This document shows, piece by piece, positions 8,476 through 18,180 of a stretch of DNA of 25,762 bases. The stretch is from the IMG/VR virus record IMGVR_UViG_3300044539_000252, positions 1-25,762 of that record; one strand, 5' to 3'. The stretch's first letter is position 1; every line of letters begins with the position of its first letter. Both the position numbers and the translations under genes were made by a program. This DNA is from a virus. The notes under the pieces are model-generated. The model was not told where the DNA came from. It did not search any database and was given only the letters and a program-made list of their open reading frames with translations.

Positions 8476-8988
8476 ATGCTTAATATCAGAAAACGTACAG
8501 CAGTAGTAGCAACTGTTTTTATCTTTTTGGGAAACTGCCCACCAGCAATGGCGGAGCCAGTAGTTCAAGAAGAAGTAGTTACAGTTGTGAGCCCGTTAGA
8601 TTCATTTAAAGAAGCTAAGGTTCTTACCAAAGCAGAATTAAAGGATTTATTAAAAGCGGTTGGTTTTGAGGGAAACGCTCTCAAGACCGCTTGGGCAGTT
8701 GCTATGAAAGAATCAAATGGTCGTCCATTAGCGCATAACGGAAATAGTGGCACTGGTGACAACTCATACGGAGTCTTTCAAATTAATATGATTGGAACCC
8801 TAGGGAACGCCCGACGGGATAAGTTCAACCTAGAGTCTAACGTAGACCTCTTTGACCCAGTTACAAACGCTGAGATAGCGTTTCATATGACTAACGGTGG
8901 AAAAGATTGGTCTTCCTGGAAAATATATCCAGATCAAACAAATGGAGCTAGATATGAGAGTTTTCTAAAACAATTCCCAAAGAACTAA
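8476..8988 (+). CDS. Secreted lysozyme/transglycosylase-like muralytic enzyme
   Basis: 170 residues and the only rightward gene between the window start and 24758. Residues 1-26 form a signal peptide (basic LNIRKR, hydrophobic core, AMA cleavage site). The mature part resembles the lysozyme-like/SLT fold: AWAVAMKESNGRPLAHN places candidate catalytic Glu79, and GDNSYGVFQINM at 95-105 is the typical substrate-cleft motif of transglycosylases. Domain length (about 115 residues) fits compact actinobacterial secreted lysozyme-like enzymes. GAGAGGAG lies 6 bases before the ATG. It has its own promoter, leader hairpin and terminator. It could be a lysis enzyme, an infection-stage wall hydrolase or a host-derived moron. 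Confidence 0.82.
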   Translation: MLNIRKRTAVVATVFIFLGNCPPAMAEPVVQEEVVTVVSPLDSFKEAKVLTKAELKDLLKAVGFEGNALKTAWAVAMKESNGRPLAHNGNSGTGDNSYGVFQINMIGTLGNARRDKFNLESNVDLFDPVTNAEIAFHMTNGGKDWSSWKIYPDQTNGARYESFLKQFPKN

Positions 8989-10473: not shown

Positions 10474-11382
10474 CTATCTTCCTTCTATTAGTTTACGTTC
10501 TTCAAAGCTTAAACCTGCCATATCTCCATACTCTTTTAGAGACCTTTCTGAGCCCAAAGCCCCAGGGCCTATCCTATTAGAGGTAAAGATGTCTATTACT
10601 TCTTGCTTTGCTATAGCATCTTTTTTGTAAAACTCCTCAGAGAAGTCTTGCCACACATGCCTGCGTAGGTTTTTTTGAAACACTACTGCTGGGTCATAGT
10701 AAAGGTGATAAAAGTATTGTTGGTCTGGAATAAATAGGTCAAACCCGTGGGTGTAAGCACGAGCTGCAGTGAGGATCTCTTCCCCCCAAAACATAATCTT
10801 TTCATTAAACCCAAGTTCAGAAAAGCTGCCGATAGTAAAAATAAACCCTGCTGATATAGAAGGCTGAAGACATTGTCCTTCGGGAGCTACCGCAAGCTGT
10901 GTTGGGATCAATTGAGTTGTAAATTGTTCTGGGCGCTCTTTAAACGAAATAAGGGTCACATCAGATGCGTAGTTAATAACCTCTTCTAAAGAGTCATTGT
11001 AAGAATAACCCCCTGGATACGCGCTAATTAATGGTTTTTTAATCCCATGCTCTTGAAGCTGTAAAACAAAGTTTATAAGTTTTTCATCCCAATCCTGCAA
11101 AAACCGTGTATGCGAGTCAATCTGTAAATAATAGTCTTCTCCGTCGTATAAATTGTTTGCTACACTCCGTGCGGCACCTACTCCAATGTTTTCAGGAGCT
11201 TTGCTTTCTATTATTTTTACATTCTCTAACGGTGGGATAAAAACCTGTTGAGCTTCGTTGTAACAAGCGTGAACCCCAAAAGTTAATTTATGCTTTTTAC
11301 TGCTTTTATTTATGCAGTCAAAGATAGTTTTGGGCAACTCAAAGTCGTGATACGAAGCAAGTTGGATAAAGATGCTAGACAC
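10474..11382 (-). CDS. GT60/PF11397-like polypeptide GlcNAc-transferase
   Basis: 302 residues. The family transfers GlcNAc from UDP-GlcNAc to hydroxyproline or threonine in polypeptides (Skp1 and mucin-type acceptors in protists). Visible signatures in order: IGVGAARSVANNLYDGEDYY near 66-85, LQIDSHTRF at 86-94 as the metal/nucleotide-binding DxH-like motif, SAGFIF near 177, FWGEEILTAARAYTHGFDLF at 198-217, and IPDQQYFYHLYYDP with His226. The fold is GT-A-like and no membrane segment or signal is present, so it acts in the cytoplasm. Start is GTG 11382 without a clear ribosome-binding site. It lies two genes downstream of a mucin-like fibre, the obvious candidate acceptor. Confidence 0.85.
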   Translation of the reverse strand: MSSIFIQLASYHDFELPKTIFDCINKSSKKHKLTFGVHACYNEAQQVFIPPLENVKIIESKAPENIGVGAARSVANNLYDGEDYYLQIDSHTRFLQDWDEKLINFVLQLQEHGIKKPLISAYPGGYSYNDSLEEVINYASDVTLISFKERPEQFTTQLIPTQLAVAPEGQCLQPSISAGFIFTIGSFSELGFNEKIMFWGEEILTAARAYTHGFDLFIPDQQYFYHLYYDPAVVFQKNLRRHVWQDFSEEFYKKDAIAKQEVIDIFTSNRIGPGALGSERSLKEYGDMAGLSFEERKLIEGR

Positions 11383-11407
11383 AAGATAAGCGTACCAAAT
11401 CTACCAT

Positions 11408-11776
11408 TTACCCATGGAACGCTGTTCCATCCCACGTATCTCCCGCAGTTGGCGTATCCATTCCAGTTATATCAATTACCTGTGGATCGCTTTGTAAGGC
11501 TGCATTAATCATTTCAGCTACAGGGCCGCCAAACTCATCTTTAATATGAGAAAATGTACCAACAACCTCATTATCAATAATTAAAGAGTATCTGTTTATT
11601 TTTTCAAATACTGGCTCTTCATTACTTAAAGTAATTTTTGGATTGCTTTTTAAGGCTGCTGTGTTGCTTTCAATAATTTGAGTTCCTTCTAAAGGGTATT
11701 CAAAAATACAAGCAAATTCATTACCTATAACAAGTGCATAAGAGACCATGGTAAACACAGGTTGAATAGTTGTCAT
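11408..11776 (-). CDS. Tandem-domain protein between fibre and glycosyltransferase
   Basis: 122 residues with an internal duplication: residues 12-49 (YALVIGNEFACIFEYPLEGT then AALKSNPKI) and 63-102 (YSLIIDNEVVGTFSHIKDEF then AALQSDPQV) align by eye. The C-terminus GDTWDGTAFH resembles the W-D-G ends of small tail-fibre-associated proteins. The start ATG 11776 shares one base with the fibre stop (TAATG), so expression is coupled to the fibre. A fibre chaperone, tip or capping protein is possible; no family was identified. Confidence 0.68.
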   Translation of the reverse strand: MTTIQPVFTMVSYALVIGNEFACIFEYPLEGTQIIESNTAALKSNPKITLSNEEPVFEKINRYSLIIDNEVVGTFSHIKDEFGGPVAEMINAALQSDPQVIDITGMDTPTAGDTWDGTAFHG

Positions 11777-12801
11777 TAGCAGAACCCATTCTCTAGTACA
11801 CAGTTACATGCCGCATTTAAGGTATAATTTGTATAGAAGCCTTCTGGGTAGCATGTATATCCAGAACCGCAAGATGCCCCTACTGTACATCCAGGGGCTG
11901 CTGTAGTAGTTGTAGTTGTAGTTGTAGTTGTAGTTGTAGTTGGAGCTGCTGTAGTAGTTGGAGCTGCTGTAGTAGTTGGAGCTGCTGTAGTGGTTGGGGC
12001 CGCTGTTGTAGTTGGAGGCGCTGTTGTAGCGGAGCCAGTTGTGGTAAAACTTGTTGCGGCAGATACGTTATTTCCAGTTTGGAAATTACCTGAGTAAATA
12101 GTTAACGTAATGCTATATGTTGTGCCAGGGCTTCCAAAAGAAATATTTCTAGATGTAGCCGTAGCACCAGTAGCTCCACTAATACTTAAGCCGCCAGGAG
12201 AAGTTGAAATAGAGTATGACTGTTGACCAACAGAGCTCCAACTTAAAGTTCCTCCAGTATTATCTATATTAGTAACTGTAAGGCTAGTAATACTTGGAAG
12301 TGCTTGTCCTGTTGTAGTACTGCTTCCATTGGTAAAACCAGATCTAACAGTAGTAACGGTGACAGTTGCACTCTGACCAGCGGTTAAACCAGTTACTGTA
12401 AATGGTAGTACAGTTCCCGTCGGTGGACTAAAGGCTATGCTGCCAGCGCTAGTCTGGGGCACCCATGTAGAGTTTCCATTGTAGTTTGTAACAGCTCCAG
12501 TAAAACCGTTTGAAGTAGCGGTATTGCCGTCAAAAGTAGGAGTAATTCCTGCTGGTGTCGGAGCTGCTGTAGTTGTAGTTGTGGTTGTAGGAGCAGCTGT
12601 AGTAGTAGTTGTAGGAGCAGCTGTAGTAGTTGTGGTAGTTGTAGTTGTAACAACAGGGGCGCAAACGTTGCGCCAAGTACCTGCTACTTTTACGTACGAG
12701 TCAGTTACTGTGCGCCAAGTTCCGCCTACTTTTATGTAGCCGCAATTTGCAGTCTCATCGACTTGGCGCCAAGTGCCACCAACTTTTACGTATTGTGGCA
12801 T
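11776..12801 (-). CDS. Mucin-like tail fibre/adhesin with Thr-rich linkers
   Basis: 341 residues. Three N-terminal copies of Y-[VI]-K-V-[GA]-G-T-W-R (residues 4, 22 and 36 on) are followed by a Thr/Ala/Pro linker (about 53-82), two Fn3-like beta domains (about 85-165 and 170-255, with LPFTVTGLTAGQSATVTVTT and TLSWSSVGQQSYSISTS), a second longer linker of TTAAP repeats (about 257-303), and a C-terminal Cys-rich knot with six Cys (CTVGASCGSGYTC ... CNCVLENGFC). The linkers resemble O-glycosylated mucin segments. An adhesin at the virion surface is likely; the Cys-rich tip would be the receptor contact. The start is ATG 12801, one codon after the upstream stop. Confidence 0.75.
   Translation of the reverse strand: MPQYVKVGGTWRQVDETANCGYIKVGGTWRTVTDSYVKVAGTWRNVCAPVVTTTTTTTTTAAPTTTTTAAPTTTTTTTAAPTPAGITPTFDGNTATSNGFTGAVTNYNGNSTWVPQTSAGSIAFSPPTGTVLPFTVTGLTAGQSATVTVTTVRSGFTNGSSTTTGQALPSITSLTVTNIDNTGGTLSWSSVGQQSYSISTSPGGLSISGATGATATSRNISFGSPGTTYSITLTIYSGNFQTGNNVSAATSFTTTGSATTAPPTTTAAPTTTAAPTTTAAPTTTAAPTTTTTTTTTTTTTAAPGCTVGASCGSGYTCYPEGFYTNYTLNAACNCVLENGFC
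11899..12028. repeat. Low-complexity coding repeat (TTAAP linker 2)
   Basis: Runs of GTAGTT followed by iterations of an approximately 21-base unit containing GGAGCTGCTGTAGTAGTT encode the second Thr/Ala/Pro linker of the fibre on the leftward strand. A similar shorter array for linker 1 lies at about 12557-12652. Such arrays are prone to length change by slippage or recombination, so fibre linker length may vary between isolates. Confidence 0.8.
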
Positions 12802-12804
12802 TAG

Positions 12805-13188
12805 TTATACGTATTTCAACCAGACATCCCCATCCATACCGCCAGTGGGGGTCGAGGTTGAAGAATAAATGTTTCTAACAACACCAGAGCTGGTGGATGC
12901 GGTAGTTACTACTCCGTCTACTTTTTTAACGTATTGAGTGTGCACATCGCCAAGAATGCCAATTTCATGGTTATTAAGGCGGGCAGTGACTGTTCCAAAC
13001 GCTGTAGCAGCCGATGTATAGGATCCTGAGCCGTTAGTAGATTGCGCAGGGTTAGTGCCTAAAGCGGTCTCAATTGCAATAACTTCTTCTTGAATAAGGT
13101 TTGGGTGCGACGCGTCAATAATATCTAAAGTGTTAGCTTTAGTAGTAAAGACGGCTGTGGATACAATCCCAGATGGATACGATGCCAT
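12805..13188 (-). CDS. Short fibre-type virion protein
   Basis: 127 residues. The N-terminus MASYPSGIVSTAVFTTKANT, followed by HPNLIQEEVIAIETALGTNP, is typical of actinophage tail-fibre or base-plate-associated proteins in which a trimeric coiled segment follows a short anchor. NNHEIGILGDVHTQYVKK and the ending GMDGDVWLKYV are also common in fibre proteins. It is directly upstream of the mucin-like fibre, 3 bases apart, so it may be the fibre base or adaptor. GAAGGGA lies about 9 bases before the ATG. The 65 bases upstream of it hold no gene. Confidence 0.72.
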   Translation of the reverse strand: MASYPSGIVSTAVFTTKANTLDIIDASHPNLIQEEVIAIETALGTNPAQSTNGSGSYTSAATAFGTVTARLNNHEIGILGDVHTQYVKKVDGVVTTASTSSGVVRNIYSSTSTPTGGMDGDVWLKYV

Positions 13189-15467: not shown

Positions 15468-15634
15468 TCTTCATCCTTTGGGTTGCGTAGTGGGTAGGTA
15501 ACAGCCCATGCAAACAAAGTACCCATGATTGCGTATCCAACAATTGTTTTAGCTGAACCATCTAGAACTACCCAAGCAATAAACATGCCTAGTAGCGTCC
15601 ATAGCTGATCAACCATATCTCTTAGTACTCTCAA
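15464..15634 (-). CDS. Small membrane protein, 56 residues, TTG start
   Basis: The frame from TTG 15634 begins MRVLRDMVDQLWTLLGMFIA, followed by WVVLDGSAKTIVGYAIMGTL and FAWAVTYPLRNPKDEE: two short hydrophobic segments with a positive N-terminus. The TTG overlaps the stop of the long surface-protein gene (TTGA) and has AGGAGA 5 bases upstream, a better site than that of the internal ATG 15616. The stop overlaps the lipoprotein ATG (ATGA). No family is known to me; the overlaps on both sides make it a convincing gene. Confidence 0.7.
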   Translation of the reverse strand: MRVLRDMVDQLWTLLGMFIAWVVLDGSAKTIVGYAIMGTLFAWAVTYPLRNPKDEE

Positions 15635-18180
15635 GGCTTTCTCCTATATCCTGATTGTCCAGAGGCGCCTCCGCCTCCAGTACTTCCTCCCGTTGAACCG
15701 CTTGCAGCACCTGCAGCAGCACCAACAGCATTTATTGCAGCACCTGCCGCAATTACTGTTGCAACAACAGCTTTTGTTGATTCTTCACGCTCTTCAGTGG
15801 ACATATCAGCACCGATACTTGCAAATGCTTGTAGTGCCTCACCTGGGTCGCTAAAGATTGCGCCAATTAATTCTGATGGGTTTTCTAGTAAAACTAGAGC
15901 CGCAGCTACGTCTGCTGTAATTATAACTTCGTTACCTTCTTCATCCTGCCTAACCTCGACAGGAGTCTCTTCAGGAAGATCTTTATATTCAATTCCCGCG
16001 TCTTGGATCTGCTCTGTTGTAAGAGTTTCTCCTTCTGCTACTGATTCAATAAGGGCATCCGCCACTAATTCTTTTTCAACAGCAGTGAGTTTGCCATCTT
16101 CCGCAAGAGTCTCTGAAAGGTTATTAACCTCATCTTTAGTAACTTCTCCATCTGCGTTAAGAGAGGCAAGAACAGCTACAGCGTCTGCGGCAGATATTTT
16201 TCCATCCGACAACACGTTGGTTACTATTGCAGTTATTTCGGCTTTGGTGGTAGTATCTGAACTTTCTACTACAGGAGGCTCAGATGGCGTATTTTCCACA
16301 GGAACGGGCAAAGGATCCGAAGGCAGCACTTCTTCAACGGGGGCAGGATCGGGCTCTGGCTCGGGTTCTGGTTGAGGATCTGGAGAAGGCTCTTCAGGGG
16401 TCTCAGGAAGAGGTGGTTCGTCTACAGGCAATGGTGGTTCAGGCAAAGGATCTACTTCGTCAGTTGGAGGCAAAGGCGGCTCTAAAGGCGGTACCTCAGT
16501 TTCAGGTTCCTCGGTTAAAGGTGGAAGAGTTTCAGGCTCCAAAGGCGGAAGGTTGGCGTCACTAGTTGACTCTTCAGGAAGAACGGGATCTGGTTCTGGC
16601 GGAAATGTCGGATCTACGGGTTCTGGTTGAGGGTCTGCGGGTAATGCAGGCTCGTCAGGGTCAAGTGGAGGCATGGGTTCTACGTCTAGATCGGGATCTA
16701 ACTCAGGTACAGGAGTTGGTTCAGGCTGAGGCTCGGGCTCTGGCAACGGCTGAGGATCTGGTTCGGGCTGAGGCGTTGGTTGAGGTTCTGGAGCCGTGGA
16801 GGGACTAGGGACAGGAGTAGGTAATGGCTGAGGAGTTGGGTCAGGAGATGGCTCTGGAGACGGCTCAGGCGCTGGAACAGGCGGCACAACGGGCTCTGGC
16901 AAAGGCGTTGGAACTACAACAGGCACGGGCTCAGGCGAAGGAGTAGGTGATGGAGTTGGTTCTGGTTGCGGTTGTGGTGTTGGTTCCACTGCTGGTGGGA
17001 CTGTTGGTGTGGGCGTTGGCTCGACAGGAAGAGGAGTAGGCGATGGAATCGGTATTACTACTGGTGATGTTTGTGTTGGGCTTGGCTCTGGGGTGGGTGT
17101 TGGGGTCGGCTCCGCTGAAGCAGAAGGTGTTGGCTCTGGAGTCACAGTTGCGGTTGAAGTGTCTACGGGAGTCAGAGTTGGAGATGGCTCTGGACTCGGA
17201 GAAGTCGAAGGCGATGGGGCGGGATTAGGATCATCTCCGTATTGAAGTATTACCGCTAATGCTTTACCAACTCCGCTACAAGGGTCGCCAAATATGTCAT
17301 TGATTGCCATTATTGAAGCAATTGCTTTACCTAAAAATACTTCCGCCACTTTTTCAATACTGTTAGGAGCGTGACATTGCCCAATCGAATATCCGTTTGG
17401 GGTACCATAACTAGCAAATATAACAGATGTAAATATTTTACCAATAGGAGCAATTAGCTCTAGTAAACCGCTTTCATTTGTTGTACCTTGAACTGTTGAA
17501 GTATCGGAAGGAGTAATTGATGGAACTGGTGTTGGGCTGGGTGTTACTGATGGCTCTGGGCTGGGCTGCGGTGTGGTGGACGGGGAAGGCGAAGGAGAAG
17601 TACTGGTCGCCTCGGGAGAAGGAGTAGGGGATGAAGAAGGTTCTGGTGTCACTGTTGGTGATGGCGTTGGGCTCGGTTGGGGCGTTGCTGTTTCTGAGGG
17701 AGATGGTGAAGGCTCTGGAGTCGGAGTTGGAGTGGGAGTCGGAGTAGGAGTAGGGGTAAGAGTTGGTTCAGGGGCTGGAGCAGCGGTAGCCCCAGTTACA
17801 ACATTTGAATTTGCGGAATACATGCGCAAAGTATCGTTATCAGATCTAATATGAAATGACCATACCGTGCCTGCAGGTTTAAGGCTATCTAGTAATGACT
17901 TGTCAATAGATATTGTTGTATTAAGAGCGTTAGCATCTCCAACATTTCCAGTTGCTATTCCCCAACCACTTCCATCAACGCTAAACATAATGGCGTATCT
18001 TTCTGGTTGAACTGTAGCTGTCCCAGAGTCTGGCGCTTGCCAAGAAAGAATAAGAGAAGTCCCGCCATCAACAATTGTTAAGTTTGTAGGCGCGCCAATA
18101 TTACCTTCAGCGTTAGCAGGTGTTGGGAATAGTAAAGGGAAAAAAGCGGCGTATGTTAGTACGGATATTGCTGCGAACAT
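15631..18180 (-). CDS. Secreted Pro/Thr-rich surface protein with Fn3-, lectin- and EF-hand-like parts
   Basis: 849 residues. Signal peptide 1-24 (cleavage after ANA); Fn3-like domain about 29-130 (APTNLTIVDGGTSLILSWQA); a first linker of TP/EP/SP repeats; a domain at about 240-322 with IFTSVIFASYGTPNGYSIGQ and IFGDPCSGVGKAL, reminiscent of SUEL-type galactose-binding lectins; a very long Pro/Glu/Thr linker to about 655; three EF-hand/dockerin-like loops (SDGKISAADAV, NADGEVTKDEV, EDGKLTAVEKE); then an Ala-rich hydrophobic helix and a Gly/Ser tail ending RRKP, like a membrane anchor. ATG 18180 lacks a nearby ribosome-binding site; see findings. It may alter the host surface during infection or be an adhesin. 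Confidence 0.75.
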   Translation of the reverse strand: MFAAISVLTYAAFFPLLFPTPANAEGNIGAPTNLTIVDGGTSLILSWQAPDSGTATVQPERYAIMFSVDGSGWGIATGNVGDANALNTTISIDKSLLDSLKPAGTVWSFHIRSDNDTLRMYSANSNVVTGATAAPAPEPTLTPTPTPTPTPTPTPEPSPSPSETATPQPSPTPSPTVTPEPSSSPTPSPEATSTSPSPSPSTTPQPSPEPSVTPSPTPVPSITPSDTSTVQGTTNESGLLELIAPIGKIFTSVIFASYGTPNGYSIGQCHAPNSIEKVAEVFLGKAIASIMAINDIFGDPCSGVGKALAVILQYGDDPNPAPSPSTSPSPEPSPTLTPVDTSTATVTPEPTPSASAEPTPTPTPEPSPTQTSPVVIPIPSPTPLPVEPTPTPTVPPAVEPTPQPQPEPTPSPTPSPEPVPVVVPTPLPEPVVPPVPAPEPSPEPSPDPTPQPLPTPVPSPSTAPEPQPTPQPEPDPQPLPEPEPQPEPTPVPELDPDLDVEPMPPLDPDEPALPADPQPEPVDPTFPPEPDPVLPEESTSDANLPPLEPETLPPLTEEPETEVPPLEPPLPPTDEVDPLPEPPLPVDEPPLPETPEEPSPDPQPEPEPEPDPAPVEEVLPSDPLPVPVENTPSEPPVVESSDTTTKAEITAIVTNVLSDGKISAADAVAVLASLNADGEVTKDEVNNLSETLAEDGKLTAVEKELVADALIESVAEGETLTTEQIQDAGIEYKDLPEETPVEVRQDEEGNEVIITADVAAALVLLENPSELIGAIFSDPGEALQAFASIGADMSTEEREESTKAVVATVIAAGAAINAVGAAAGAASGSTGGSTGGGGASGQSGYRRKP

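Follow-up and report, generated by a model that had tools for sequence, protein, structure and literature searches.

Mucin-type O-glycosylation of threonine runs is regarded as a eukaryotic trait, and in the Dictyostelium Skp1 prolyl hydroxylase/Gnt1 pathway a GT60 enzyme acts on hydroxyproline. In the GT60 and GT27 families alike, DxH takes the position of the DxD motif, and Ser/Thr residues of polypeptides are glycosylated (PMC7185993). The GT60 activity of Trypanosoma cruzi modified the synthetic peptide KPPTTTTTTTTKPP with Mn2+ (PMC3769586). In phages, the capsid and tail tube of the mycobacteriophages Che8, Corndog and Myrna are O-glycosylated (Freeman et al. 2023, via PMC12363180 and PMC12619734). 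The first-pass annotation of the present locus, which treated dedicated self-glycosylation of a phage fibre by the GT60 family as undescribed, has to be corrected to this extent: dedicated virion O-glycosylation is known in mycobacteriophages. In the open-access literature, we found no report of a phage system combining a GT60 enzyme with a Thr-run protein.

Gene order, enzyme and fibre-like protein of the window

The window analysed here is the full 25,762-base IMG/VR virus record IMGVR_UViG_3300044539_000252 (positions 1 to 25,762). Its phage is tailed, with matches to a terminase, an SPP1-type portal and a major head protein, and an actinobacterial host is plausible because its terminase and the one of Streptomyces phage BRock share 54% identity. 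Four genes on the minus strand are arranged, in the order of transcription, as a 127-aa protein, a Thr-rich fibre-like protein, a 122-aa protein and a GT60-family enzyme. We consider it likely that the window encodes a mucin-type O-glycosylation module of the phage's own, acting on the linker threonines of the fibre-like protein in a manner reminiscent of mucin production in animals and parasites. The features are as follows.

10474..11382, minus strand: PF11397/GT60-family glycosyltransferase, 302 aa, GTG start (Pfam, alignment, model, PDB fold neighbours)
11408..11776, minus strand: 122-aa protein between fibre and enzyme, its start overlapping the fibre stop (TAATG)
11776..12801, minus strand: fibre-like protein, presumed acceptor, 341 aa, 98 Thr (29% Thr) (composition, relatives)
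11869..12048, minus strand: second Thr/Ala/Pro linker, aa 252-311, 31 Thr, including a 13-Thr run
12529..12669, minus strand: first Thr/Ala/Pro linker, aa 45-91, 24 Thr
12649..12801, minus strand: fibre head with three YVKVGGTWR-type repeats (alignment, head-probed loci, gene maps)
12805..13188, minus strand: 127-aa protein, upstream neighbour of the fibre gene, with a weak C-terminal match to tail fibre phrog_14064

The enzyme matched PF11397 with an E value of 2.5e-40 and 139.4 bits (curated cut-off 21 bits), and the motifs LQIDSHTRF, FWGEEI and THGFD, on which the GT60 assignment in the first-pass annotation had been based, were all found in the open reading frame. That assignment stood, with an intact active site in which the DxH...E...H pattern is conserved. 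Alignment with 49 viral relatives revealed that D89 and H91 of the DxH motif and E202 are invariant and that H226 is conserved in at least 90%, as would be expected of a polypeptide transferase of the retaining DxH type. The AlphaFold (AF2) model has a mean pLDDT of 96.2 and displays a GT-A fold with DxH instead of DxD, an active-site acid and a C-terminal His. Comparison of this model with the PDB by Foldseek placed polypeptide GalNAc-transferases at all of ranks 1-35, with TarS and TarP further down the list; VIA-align placed them at all of ranks 1-29 (Z 18.9-22.4), the next family below being chondroitin polymerase (Z 17.0). No relatives of the enzyme were found in the PDB at the sequence level, the kinship being visible by fold alone. 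No membrane segment is evident in its 302 aa. Among isolate phages, relatives (26% identity) occur only in three jumbo phages of Xanthomonas/Stenotrophomonas. Bacterial PF11397 genes were rejected as the source of the enzyme, their 24 loci showing at most 31% identity and a Thr-run in none (0/24).

Analysis of the fibre-like protein confirmed the two TTTTT-AAP-type linkers that had been read from the sequence earlier, at aa 45-91 and aa 252-311. With 24 and 31 Thr they form the dense Thr/Ser-Pro-Ala stretches that mark a mucin-type acceptor, and the longest Thr run, of 13, exceeds the maximum of 11 obtained in 5000 composition-preserving shuffles. The tail of the protein is Cys-rich. No family match was found in Pfam and no match among sequenced isolate phages, and the product is presumed to be a fibre from its sequence context: the next gene has a weak tail-fibre match, and the same-slot gene of the relative L131 encodes fibronectin-III domains. 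The 127-aa protein is a conserved neighbour of the fibre head. The TAATG overlap makes translational coupling of the middle gene with the fibre plausible, in agreement with the co-translation proposed earlier. The 122-aa product contains, as judged by eye, a unit of about 40 aa in two copies, and its relatives occupy the equivalent slot in many loci of the enzyme's own clade (clade A, below). A relationship between this protein and the same-slot protein of locus L154 was dropped, the BLAST match being short and marginal (E 0.002).

Two further genes of the window were recorded. At 15631-18180 (minus strand), an 849-aa protein starts with a stretch resembling a signal peptide, and its C-terminus is hydrophobic with basic residues after it; it also has long Pro/Thr/Ser/Glu repeats and matches the SUEL lectin family PF02140 below threshold (E 7.9e-6). 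Its gene adjoins a lipoprotein-like gene and that of an endolysin (CHAP), and the product is possibly an envelope or lysis protein. At 8476-8988 (plus strand), a lysozyme-like SLT_3 protein, also with a signal-peptide-like N-terminus, is encoded by the sole plus-strand gene within the minus-strand structural region.

Threonine runs and enzyme clades across phages

The distribution of the pairing was analysed in 77 viral loci carrying relatives of the enzyme, together with PF11397 matches from other loci, and a tree was built from 63 enzymes, each below 90% identity. Thr-runs were scored upstream of enzymes with enough sequence (within 5 kb, same strand) and in a downstream window of 4 kb. An upstream same-strand Thr-run protein accompanies 29 of 36 non-redundant enzymes in clade A, to which the window belongs, versus 1 of 16 sister-clade enzymes (Fisher P 5e-7, which overstates independence, the phages being related). 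Counted per locus, the values are 40/50 and 1/27. No Thr-run lies within 4 kb downstream of any of the 63 enzymes, and the base rates are 1/74 in random viral loci and 4/80 in loci of window-terminase relatives. The pairing of enzyme and Thr-run is not due to chance, and it recurs in dozens of other aquatic phages, which bears out the co-occurrence of PF11397 genes with Thr-run fibres expected in the first-pass annotation.

In the reverse direction, 79 records were collected by the pattern Thr7-AAP-Thr4; PF11397 was found in eight of them versus 0/50 random records (P 0.017, again an overstatement of independence given phage kinship). In four of these phage records (79-103 kb), the long run shares the strand of the enzyme and precedes it by at most about 3 kb, and the remainder of each record, scanned almost whole, holds at most two weaker Thr/Ser-rich stretches. 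In record G036 the run is distant from the enzyme, which is located at the contig end. PF11397 is missing from the other 71 records, many of which are fragments. In some phages lacking PF11397, Thr-runs have other glycosyltransferases as downstream neighbours (GT2, Gly_transf_sug, Caps_synth and further families), and these may serve the runs there. Seven clade-A enzymes have no Thr-run at the cut-off applied. Among them, L036 and L045 possess weaker Thr/Pro linkers, and L022, L031, L043 and L050 appear to be true exceptions with no obvious Thr-run.

The proteins bearing the runs are diverse, ranging from 100-aa mini-proteins, half of which is linker, to 1,200-aa fibres. After masking of the linkers they fall into 12 sequence clusters at E 1e-3, of which 11 occur with clade-A enzymes (one of the 11 being the fragment L037). 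The run-bearing proteins are of at least ten kinds, among which no similarity is detectable beyond the linker. Threonine codons within the runs are mixed, with identical neighbours at 24% observed versus 32% expected, indicating selection on the protein sequence rather than slippage or plain codon expansion. Chance or a low-complexity artefact was rejected on the shuffles, the codon mix and the base rates.

In terminase relatives without Thr-runs, the slot between the fibre and the next structural gene is filled by other decorating enzymes: sister-clade PF11397 proteins, 2OG-Fe(II) oxygenases, GDP-mannose-dehydratase-like epimerases, a carbamoyltransferase, an APS kinase, a GT2-like protein and a protein with a weak sulfotransferase match. 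From its gene content, this slot looks like a modification cassette whose content varies with the fibre. In L094, L100, L108, L113, L114 and L117 (0-6 kb), the slot is hypervariable, and DUF6065 and glycosyltransferases are also present. In L047 (4121-5005) and L048, a DUF7164 gene with a weak Galactosyl_T match lies between the Thr-run fibre and GT60; this glycosyltransferase-like protein possibly extends the first sugar.

Near PF11397 genes, 2OG oxygenases are equally common in the two clades (P 0.40), and none was identified in the window; a Skp1-like hydroxyproline route for the window was rejected on the equal frequencies. In SAR86 and other gammaproteobacteria (L384-L396), chromosomal sister-type PF11397 genes were observed, about half of these loci also carrying 2OG-Fe(II) oxygenase-like genes, and the two enzymes could form a hydroxylation/glycosylation pair.

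The same data bear on the possibility that the enzyme targets a different protein of the virion or tail, or a different region of the fibre such as the Cys-rich tip or an Ig-like domain, with the Thr-runs serving merely as flexible linkers. The many decorating enzymes in related slots without Thr-runs indicate that the slot can carry enzymes in the absence of a run, and a strict run is missing beside some clade-A enzymes. However, the runs follow the enzyme clade and not the slot, given the 1/16 of sister-clade PF11397 enzymes, they occur on many unrelated proteins beside clade-A enzymes, and the T. cruzi precedent concerns Thr-runs (PMC3769586), so that we regard this reading as unlikely.

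Less probable still is modification of host-surface structures such as teichoic acid or capsule, for instance to prevent superinfection, with the proximity to the fibre reflecting a receptor theme. Phage glycosyltransferases that alter serotype are known (PMC12619734), and TarS and TarP do appear lower in the fold list, but the top folds are polypeptide GalNAc-transferases with a clear gap above the sugar-polymer enzymes, the enzyme lacks an evident membrane segment, and its gene stands among virion genes beside a Thr-run protein in dozens of phages.

Exchange of the glycosyltransferase

The fibre head alone was used as a probe, and every locus found in this way contains a Thr-run. In the window, L003, L004 and L042, the head is followed by GT60. 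In L154, L377 and L378, the shared head and Thr-runs are followed by a DUF6171 protein and then by an unrelated enzyme with the motifs GNRMHQYA, HLRRDD and SSFSWW, after which an epimerase/dehydratase (PF01370) is encoded in L154 and L377. The head is conserved in phages using either of two unrelated glycosyltransferases. The second enzyme matched the glycosyltransferase phrog_2644 (E 5.2e-6) and, below threshold, Pfam GT11. The top folds for its low-confidence model (pLDDT 58) are all fucosyltransferases (NodZ, FUT1 and FUT8), and at this pLDDT they serve as backing for the PHROG and weak GT11 matches. The replacement was located as follows.

L154, 2078-3972: fucosyltransferase-like enzyme and epimerase in place of GT60
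L377, 7253-9153: fucosyltransferase-like enzyme and epimerase in place of GT60
L404-L412: loci with the fucosyltransferase-like enzyme and epimerase in place of GT60

A search with the fucosyltransferase-like enzyme returned nine loci, and a Thr-run is present in 8/8 of those with the fibre gene in view; in L411 the run is borne by a different fibre. Two unrelated glycosyltransferases thus accompany Thr-run fibres, an association that would be difficult to account for if the runs were not glycosylated. Cassettes of both types, with GT60 and with the fucosyltransferase-like enzyme, encode the small, Cys-rich, zinc-ribbon-like DUF6171 protein directly before the glycosyltransferase, between it and the Thr-run fibre; L019, L024, L154 and L377 are among the loci in which this was observed.

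Common descent alone, with fibre and enzyme passed on as a single ancestral block and the Thr-runs being neutral expansions of low complexity, could account for the clustering visible on the enzyme tree (nine changes over 49 scored rows) and for Thr-runs in many phages without PF11397, but it is very improbable in view of the roughly eleven clusters beside clade-A enzymes with no detectable similarity outside the linker, the mixed codons and the same association with a second, unrelated glycosyltransferase (8/8).

Proposed mechanism and comparison with known systems

From the observed enzyme family, active site, fold and linkage, we infer the reaction, its donor and sites, the virion location and the benefit of the module. 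The GT60-like enzyme would be made in the host cytoplasm and act before assembly. UDP-GlcNAc, present in every bacterium, is the probable donor among UDP-sugars, with a divalent metal presumably held at the DxH motif. Threonines in the Thr/Ala/Pro linkers would receive an alpha-linked HexNAc, probably GlcNAc, in a retaining reaction, and the peptides TTTTTTTAAPTTTTT and AAPTTTAAPTTT are candidate acceptors. The glycosylated linkers would form extended, sugar-coated stalks bearing the Cys-rich tip and be built into the virion, where the sugars probably make the stalks stiffer and better protected and/or alter which surface or defence recognises the virion. Decoration of the linkers, as suggested in the first-pass annotation, gained from the ppGalNAc-T-like fold, the many unrelated Thr-run proteins and the glycosyltransferase swap; the sugar and the protective role proposed with it are guesses.

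In a wider sense, and with less assurance, we lean towards the view that aquatic phages have independently assembled mucin-type systems, in which Thr-run appendages are combined with a swappable cassette, either GT60 or fucosyltransferase-like enzyme with epimerase, and one and the same fibre receives another sugar coat when the enzyme is swapped. If phages do glycosylate Thr-runs of their own appendages with a GT60/ppGalNAc-T-like enzyme, this would provide a compact cytoplasmic system of one enzyme and one acceptor in which mucin glycosylation could be studied and engineered, account for the numerous poly-Thr linkers of phage proteins that lack an explanation so far, and extend the known routes of phage surface variation by exchangeable sugar coats.

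The phage enzyme shares Pfam family PF11397 and the DxH motif with T. cruzi TcOGNT and Dictyostelium Gnt2, GT60 enzymes with UDP-GlcNAc:polypeptide alpha-GlcNAc-transferase activity, and the TcOGNT acceptor, the Thr-run/Pro peptide KPPT8KPP, closely resembles the phage linkers (PMC3769586). However, TcOGNT and Gnt2 are Golgi enzymes acting on secreted mucins, whereas the phage enzyme is soluble and its putative acceptor is a presumed virion protein. The GT27 polypeptide GalNAc-transferases have the closest solved fold (Z up to 22.4), also with DxH, and their retaining transfer to Thr/Ser of mucin-like peptides resembles the proposed phage reaction; the phage enzyme differs in sharing only 11-15% identity over the aligned region and in having no lectin domain, and its donor, probably UDP-GlcNAc, may differ from the GalNAc donor of GT27 enzymes. 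The Skp1/Gnt1 pathway has the Pfam family in common with the phage enzyme, and several PF11397 phage loci encode 2OG-Fe(II) oxygenases, but its acceptor is hydroxyproline and the phage linkers offer mainly Thr. In the mycobacteriophages, virion proteins are decorated by a glycosyltransferase that the phage itself encodes, as proposed here. Capsid and tail tube subunits are modified there at their C-termini, whereas the present system has a Thr-run fibre-like protein as putative acceptor and a GT60/ppGalNAc-T-like enzyme. Compared with known phage virion glycosylation, the system proposed here differs in enzyme family, acceptor type and swappable design.
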